Of a DNA stretch of 64,000 nt, positions 51,606 to 52,318 are shown piece by piece; position 1 is the first letter of the stretch, and each line of letters starts with the position of its first letter. The notes under the pieces were generated by a model. It saw nothing but the letters and a program-made list of their open reading frames with translations, had not been told where the DNA came from and searched no databases. The DNA comes from Ignisphaera sp. (GTDB lineage: Archaea > Thermoproteota > Thermoprotei_A > Sulfolobales > Ignisphaeraceae): contig JAWBKZ010000001.1 in assembly GCA_038831005.1 (NCBI GenBank), forward strand, positions 248,001-312,000. The letters run 5' to 3'. The translations under genes and the position numbers were made by a program.

Positions 51606-51871
51606 AGTCATATAATTGTAGCTGAAATCAATGCACATCGAACTCTATACATATCATCATCTAGTCTTTATAGTGAGTGAACCTCGAGAAAGAGTCTATG
51701 AAACTAACTGAACACTAGATCCAAACATGTATCATATCCTTGTTCTATGCCTATCGATAGAGAAGAGGTATTTCAATGAACTATGATCAAGATCTTTATC
51801 AAACTATCAATCATTGATTGGGATACAGATATTTATATGAGGTTCTATGAAATACTGTATGGTGATCTACA

Positions 51872-52318
51872 ATACCAACAGTACTTGTTATCTACTATTC
51901 GAGAACAGGTAACACAAAGAAACTTGTTGAAAGTTTTGTTGAAGGTGTTAGAAAAGTTCATGGTGTAGACGTTATAGTAAAGAATGTTGATGAAGCGAAA
52001 ACAAGTGATTTACTGAGTGCTGATGCCATAGTTTTTGCCAGTCCTTCATACTTTAGGCTTCCTGCATGGCCTATCAAGAAGTATATAGATGAATCTATAG
52101 ATGTCTATGGAAAACTTGGAGGAAAGATTGGTGGAGCTCTTTGTACAGCAGGTTCAGAGATAGGTGCTGTAAAGTGTGTTCAAGCTTTAAGAGATGCTAT
52201 AGAAGAGCATGGAATTACCTTTATCGGTGATGGTGTTTGGTGTATAGAGTCTCCAAGCAGAAAAGATATGCAGAAAGCAGCTGAATATGGTGAAGAAATA
52301 GCCAAGAAACTAAAGTAG
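51872..52318 (+). CDS. Flavodoxin/WrbA-like FMN protein with only an ATA start available
   Basis: A clean 148-codon frame, unbroken from 51869 to the TAG at 52316, encoding a complete flavodoxin-like protein. The FMN phosphate loop is VLVIYYSRTGNTKKLVESF at the very beginning, followed by SADAIVFASPSYFRLPAWP (isoalloxazine loop) and KIGGALCTAGSEIGAVK (third loop), as in WrbA and related quinone reductases. GGTGAT lies five bases ahead of ATACCAACAGTA, exactly where ATG is expected, but the codon is ATA. No ATG, GTG or TTG exists in frame until the last residues. Either AUA initiates here or the start has mutated. The coding part shows no decay. Confidence 0.75.
   Translation: MPTVLVIYYSRTGNTKKLVESFVEGVRKVHGVDVIVKNVDEAKTSDLLSADAIVFASPSYFRLPAWPIKKYIDESIDVYGKLGGKIGGALCTAGSEIGAVKCVQALRDAIEEHGITFIGDGVWCIESPSRKDMQKAAEYGEEIAKKLK

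Follow-up and report, generated by a model that had tools for sequence, protein, structure and literature searches.

Can a gene be translated when the codon at its expected start is ATA? The question is raised by a flavodoxin gene in the window, by which we mean the whole 64,000-nucleotide stretch of DNA analysed here, taken from an Ignisphaera genome of 1.70 Mb in nine contigs that is 99.5% complete.

A flavodoxin frame without an early canonical start codon

The sequence and codon list show an undamaged frame of 148 codons (51872-52315, + strand) that ends at the stop TAG 52316-52318. Upstream, the frame is closed by an in-frame TGA (51863-51865) lying inside the GGTGAT of the Shine-Dalgarno (SD) site, and only the codons TCT and ACA stand between this stop and the ATA. 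The first in-frame ATG, GTG or TTG is the ATG at 52268, which cannot give a flavodoxin because it is codon 133 of 148. The features of the locus are as follows.

51832..51839, +, TATA-box-like element TTTATATG, read directly, centred about 37 bases 5′ of the ATA; promoter function inferred
51861..51866, +, SD site GGTGAT, perfect, followed by five bases and then the ATA
51863..51865, +, in-frame TGA, part of the SD site, closing the frame upstream
51872..51874, +, ATA, inferred start codon, aligned with ATG in two orthologues (L012, L013) and TTG in a third (L014); no canonical start before 52268
51872..52318, +, flavodoxin-fold protein, 148 codons plus TAG, supported by Pfam, PDB matches and orthologues
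51899..51916, +, phosphate-binding loop SRTGNT, from the translation, aligned with PDB 2ark; clear
52040..52069, +, second flavin loop region SPSYFRLPAW, from the translation, aligned with PDB 2ark; clear
52142..52165, +, third flavin loop region CTAGSEIG, from the translation; weaker and less secure alignment with PDB 2ark

The distance from the end of GGTG to the ATA is 7 bases, which lies inside the peak of 5-9 bases found for canonical starts in the same genome. GGTGAT is complementary to the usual 3′ end of archaeal 16S rRNA; the anti-SD was not read from the 16S gene of this genome. No Rfam family was matched at the flavodoxin locus, and scans for sigma-70 promoters and terminators there are not relevant to archaea. 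We also observe an ATG frame of 61 codons in another phase (51783-51968, +), which overlaps the 5′ end of the flavodoxin gene, probably by chance.

The first-pass annotation had claimed an intact 148-codon frame with GGTGAT five bases before ATA, the absence of any in-frame ATG, GTG or TTG ahead of the flavin loop, and the presence of all three flavin loops. The first two claims held; of the loops, two are clear and the third is less securely aligned. Its further claim that gene finders would easily miss such a gene is sound as reasoning and does not come from the deposited annotation.

The product has a flavodoxin fold

The frame matches Pfam Flavodoxin_1 (PF00258) with 28.9 bits against a cut-off of 25, and the match runs over residues 8-140 of the 150-residue frame and profile positions 1-141 of 143, so that membership by an above-cut-off match across the whole domain is met. 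The FMN_red profile is also matched (38.2 bits, cut-off 24). The nearest solved relatives, PDB 2ark (E = 3.5e-19) and 5wid, are both named flavodoxin. They share with the window protein a short flavodoxin fold with the phosphate loop TGNT and the flavin loops that follow, and SRTGNT meets the loop pattern T/S-x-T-G-x-T. The window protein differs in its start codon and in falling under the cut-off of NCBIfam TIGR01753, the short-chain flavodoxin equivalog (50 bits against 123); FMN_red and WrbA-like proteins are close as well. We therefore call the product a flavodoxin-fold protein of unsettled subfamily and do not file it as a TIGR01753 equivalog. The fold is shown by the profile, and FMN binding is inferred.

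The ATA occupies the orthologous start position in a gene under purifying selection

Close orthologues were found only in two congeners among 60 relatives, with 70-71% identity, and a third, in a more distant archaeon, has 51% identity. A comparison with orthologues had been proposed as a check of the first reading, and when run it placed an ATG, an ATG and a TTG exactly at the ATA. The orthologues begin ATG CCT CGT (L012), ATG CCT ATG (L013) and TTG CCT AAG (L014), against ATA CCA ACA in the window, so the homologous start position is shown by alignment with all three. The ATA itself is not conserved for this gene, since the two closest orthologues use ATG. One of them (L005/L013) carries a TATA-like TTTATATA upstream of its ATG, at a similar spacing.

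The dN/dS of the window gene against the two congeners is 0.16 and 0.10, and that of congener against congener is 0.12. Unique residue changes number 15 in the window gene and 18 and 16 in the congeners. Synonymous sites are near saturation in this comparison, and only the absence of an excess on the window branch should be counted. With that reservation, the gene is under normal purifying selection and no relaxation is seen.

Similar starts in the same genome and family

We screened 400 kb of the same genome, taken in stretches, together with the 64-kb window (464 kb) for coding signal beginning before any canonical codon. Gene calls rested on a simple codon-usage score over sampled stretches and not on whole genomes. 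The flavodoxin frame ranked first of 381-395 genes, which shows that an orphan frame with such a coding signal is more than chance. Many other frames from the first screen lacked an SD site and were either fragments of broken genes or ordinary genes whose frame happens to extend upstream; they were left uncounted. One frame without start or SD, metallophosphoesterase-like (L020:15509-16033), is probably a broken gene fragment.

Two further genes of this genome have an ATA seven bases after GGTG. One encodes a corrinoid protein (L033 6412; aligned codon ATG in L042 and L046) and the other, on the reverse strand, a winged-helix-like protein (L032; aligned codon GTG in L056). The same SD layout precedes a CTG at L027 12304, where the aligned codon in L089 is ATG, and an ACG in the gene for a type 4 uracil-DNA glycosylase (L022). 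In several Ignisphaeraceae the glycosylase has ACG six or seven bases after GGTG, and in G008 the codon six bases past AGGAGGTG is ATA; some of these genes have an in-frame GTG inside the SD that could serve as the start instead.

Three further genes were noted in passing. In a valyl-tRNA-synthetase-like gene of 819 codons, named by eye (L169, G006:C1:360941), GAGGTG is followed at seven bases by ATA, and 48 codons pass without a canonical start. An aminotransferase-like gene (L163, G006:C1:240211) shows TTT at a distance of seven bases from AGGTG, and its first 43 codons include no canonical start; TTT differs from ATG by more than one base. In a tRNA-guanine transglycosylase-like gene of an isolate genome (L115, G009:C1:86745), a TAG lies just ahead of the first conserved codon and a canonical start is absent over 35 codons; the G006 orthologue likewise has no canonical start early in the gene.

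A phase test across five related genomes

We then collected every coding frame whose upstream stop is the TGA within a GGTGA word, and recorded which codon stands seven bases past the GGTG (codon 3). This test was chosen because it avoids picking by eye and because no upstream start is possible in such frames. It was applied to sampled stretches of five related genomes, with none outside the order as control. Two of them are single contigs, G009 (1,875,953 bases) and G055 (2,225,959 bases), which we take to be the isolates Ignisphaera aggregans and Sulfolobus acidocaldarius, respectively.

The tested codon is ATG, GTG or TTG in 64 frames. Among the 36 frames without a canonical start at codons 2-4, 26 have a one-base relative of ATG at codon 3 (CTG 10, ATA 7, ATT 6, ACG 2, AAG 1, ATC 0, AGG 0), against 17.9% of control frames opened by other stops (~206/1154; P ~1e-12); only codon 3 shows the excess. 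About 6 of the 26 are expected by chance, and the count does not single out individual genes; in a few cases, which may be chance, a canonical codon follows within a few codons. All four near-cognates of G055 are ATT, and those of Ignisphaera are mostly CTG and ATA. A looser test that admits any SD at any phase gives 12/26 near-cognates (P 7e-4), a weaker result because SD-like words inside genes dilute the signal. Another 400 kb of G009, fetched after the test had been fixed, yielded 18 canonical starts and one other, a CTG. The direction holds at a lower rate, and the rate varies.

Near-cognate starts conserved between species

The ATT gene at 68396 of G055 (G055:C1:68396) encodes type 2 isopentenyl-diphosphate isomerase (IDI2). 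Its residue 3 aligns with residue 4 of PDB 2zru, and the next canonical codon is number 61. ATT occurs at the same place, with GGTG at 6-7 bases, in eight Sulfolobaceae genomes of three genera, and other Sulfolobaceae have ATG there; five of the eight have an in-frame GTG inside the SD, and in three there is no alternative start. In an MBF1-like gene the aligned codon is CTG in six Ignisphaera species and TTG in four; in G009 and G006 the stop that closes its frame a short way upstream is the TGA within the SD. In G009 the purQ gene has CTG as its start codon: its alignment with PDB 3d54 begins at residue 3, and the next canonical codon lies 24 codons on. Both the recurrence of near-cognate starts and their conservation between species are thus shown.

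AUA as the most likely start and its alternatives

We consider it likely that AUA initiates translation of the flavodoxin gene, a conclusion inferred from sequence, with no protein, ribosome or transcript data. This reading is favoured because the ATA is the orthologous start, selection is not relaxed, two more genes of the genome have ATA, and near-cognate starts are enriched and partly conserved. The gene meets three criteria for a near-cognate start that can be read from sequence, namely no usable canonical start, an SD at the right distance and a homologous start codon at the same position; a fourth, a protein with Met encoded by that codon, is inferred. Of the two possibilities raised by the first-pass annotation, that AUA initiates or that a recent mutation silenced the gene, the first is favoured and the second is not excluded.

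Under AUA initiation, transcription would begin shortly before or at GGTGAT, as inferred from the TATA-like element, leaving a very short leader. The GGUGAU would pair with the 3′ end of 16S rRNA and place AUA in the P site, where the initiator Met-tRNA (anticodon CAU) would accept it with a third-position mismatch to give M-P-T-V-L-V-I-Y-Y-S.... Across this archaeal order, SD-led starts would in general be of low fidelity, with CUG, AUU and ACG used too. Actual translation of the flavodoxin gene, its initiating residue and the length of its leader are all inferred.

Several points count against this reading, among them the ATG of the two closest orthologues and the lower rate in the further 400 kb of G009. 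In Saccharolobus solfataricus the factor aIF1 is reported to reject non-canonical starts (PMC8211752), and aIF1 is encoded in the source genome; since it is present, its loss is not the cause. In addition, an in-frame GTG within the SD might be the true start in several of the conserved cases.

The alternative that survives best is a recent G-to-A change of the start codon that silenced the gene before decay had begun. The close orthologues have ATG, a single transition explains the ATA, and shortly after a mutation of this kind the frame should still be undamaged. We nevertheless find it unlikely: the SD site, its spacing and the TATA-like element are intact and selection is not relaxed, the same genome has two other ATA cases in 464 kb, and similar starts occur elsewhere in essential-looking genes (IDI2 and a tRNA synthetase-like gene). 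Random inactivation would moreover produce nonsense or frameshift changes far more often than start-codon changes.

A short-read or metagenome base error is very unlikely. The true codon would be ATG, or a missing base would put ATG 51859 in frame; dropping one base between 51862 and 51871 does bring this ATG into frame, the genome is in 9 contigs, and the base rests on the assembly alone. However, substitution errors frequent enough to strike several start codons would have left broken genes throughout the genome. Starts of this class are also found in genomes assembled as one contig (G009, G055 and others) and are conserved between species, and the orthologues start at the ATA position and not four codons earlier. 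Either a silencing mutation or a base error would be a coincidence on top of a general trait. Neither is excluded for the flavodoxin gene alone, which could still represent a recent start-loss mutation or an assembly error.

Translation from an out-of-frame upstream ATG (51783 or 51859) with a frameshift into the flavodoxin frame is all but excluded: the ATG frame 51783-51968 does overlap the 5′ end of the gene, but by eye it is not conserved before the orthologues, no slippery site was noticed, and the SD spacing and orthologous start position would be left unexplained.

Relation to known non-AUG starts

Only AUG, GUG and UUG are named as archaeal start codons in a 2020 review (PMC7531240). 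In the source genome, genes with these starts have a GGTG-type SD at the same spacing as the flavodoxin gene, and the difference lies in the start codon. A rare ATT start has been proposed for the Asgard archaeal tubulin AtubA (PMC13394414), likewise an archaeal gene in which the N-terminus and the ribosome-binding site indicate a near-cognate start codon further upstream; that case differs in concerning one gene from a distant group, put forward on structural and alignment grounds without a survey. A survey of near-cognate (AUA, CUG, AUU) starts in crenarchaea or archaea was not found in the open-access literature searched, which is weak evidence of novelty.

Non-AUG initiation is known in bacteria from the AUU of infC and pcnB and the CUG of repA, and near-cognate initiation is known in eukaryotes. 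As there, a near-cognate codon in the P site would be read by the initiator tRNA, with CUG, AUA, AUU and ACG used and AAG and AGG hardly at all. The present starts differ in being SD-led and archaeal, and they recur over several genomes of one order and not in single genes. The preference for CUG, AUA, AUU and ACG over AAG or AGG resembles the eukaryotic ranking, a resemblance that bears on the shared initiation core.

A bolder reading, which we hold to be more likely than not, is that in the GTDB Sulfolobales, which include Ignisphaera and Sulfolobus, CUG, AUA, AUU and ACG serve as regular SD-led starts for about one to a few percent of the genes, central enzymes among them, with some of these codons kept between genera, and that many annotated starts are consequently absent or incorrect. 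Should near-cognate starts prove routine in crenarchaea, the stringency of archaeal start-codon selection would be looser than thought, and enzymes such as IDI2 and PurQ would be cut short or lost by gene finders that allow only three start codons. Existing proteomics and ribosome profiling of Sulfolobus acidocaldarius could test such starts directly.

A conserved in-frame TAG in citramalate synthase

The citramalate synthase gene (L035:12050-13624; G000:C3:52050-53624) was first taken for an orphan start and was rejected as such; its conserved in-frame TAG is a separate matter. Eight of ten Ignisphaera genomes read AGGTG-N4-GTG GTY TAG AAA TCC (spacer as read), with the TAG in frame two codons after the likely GTG start. 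The TAG is conserved and unexplained, with readthrough, a start-stop leader or a start after the TAG all possible; at this position G009 has AAG and G001 has CAA.
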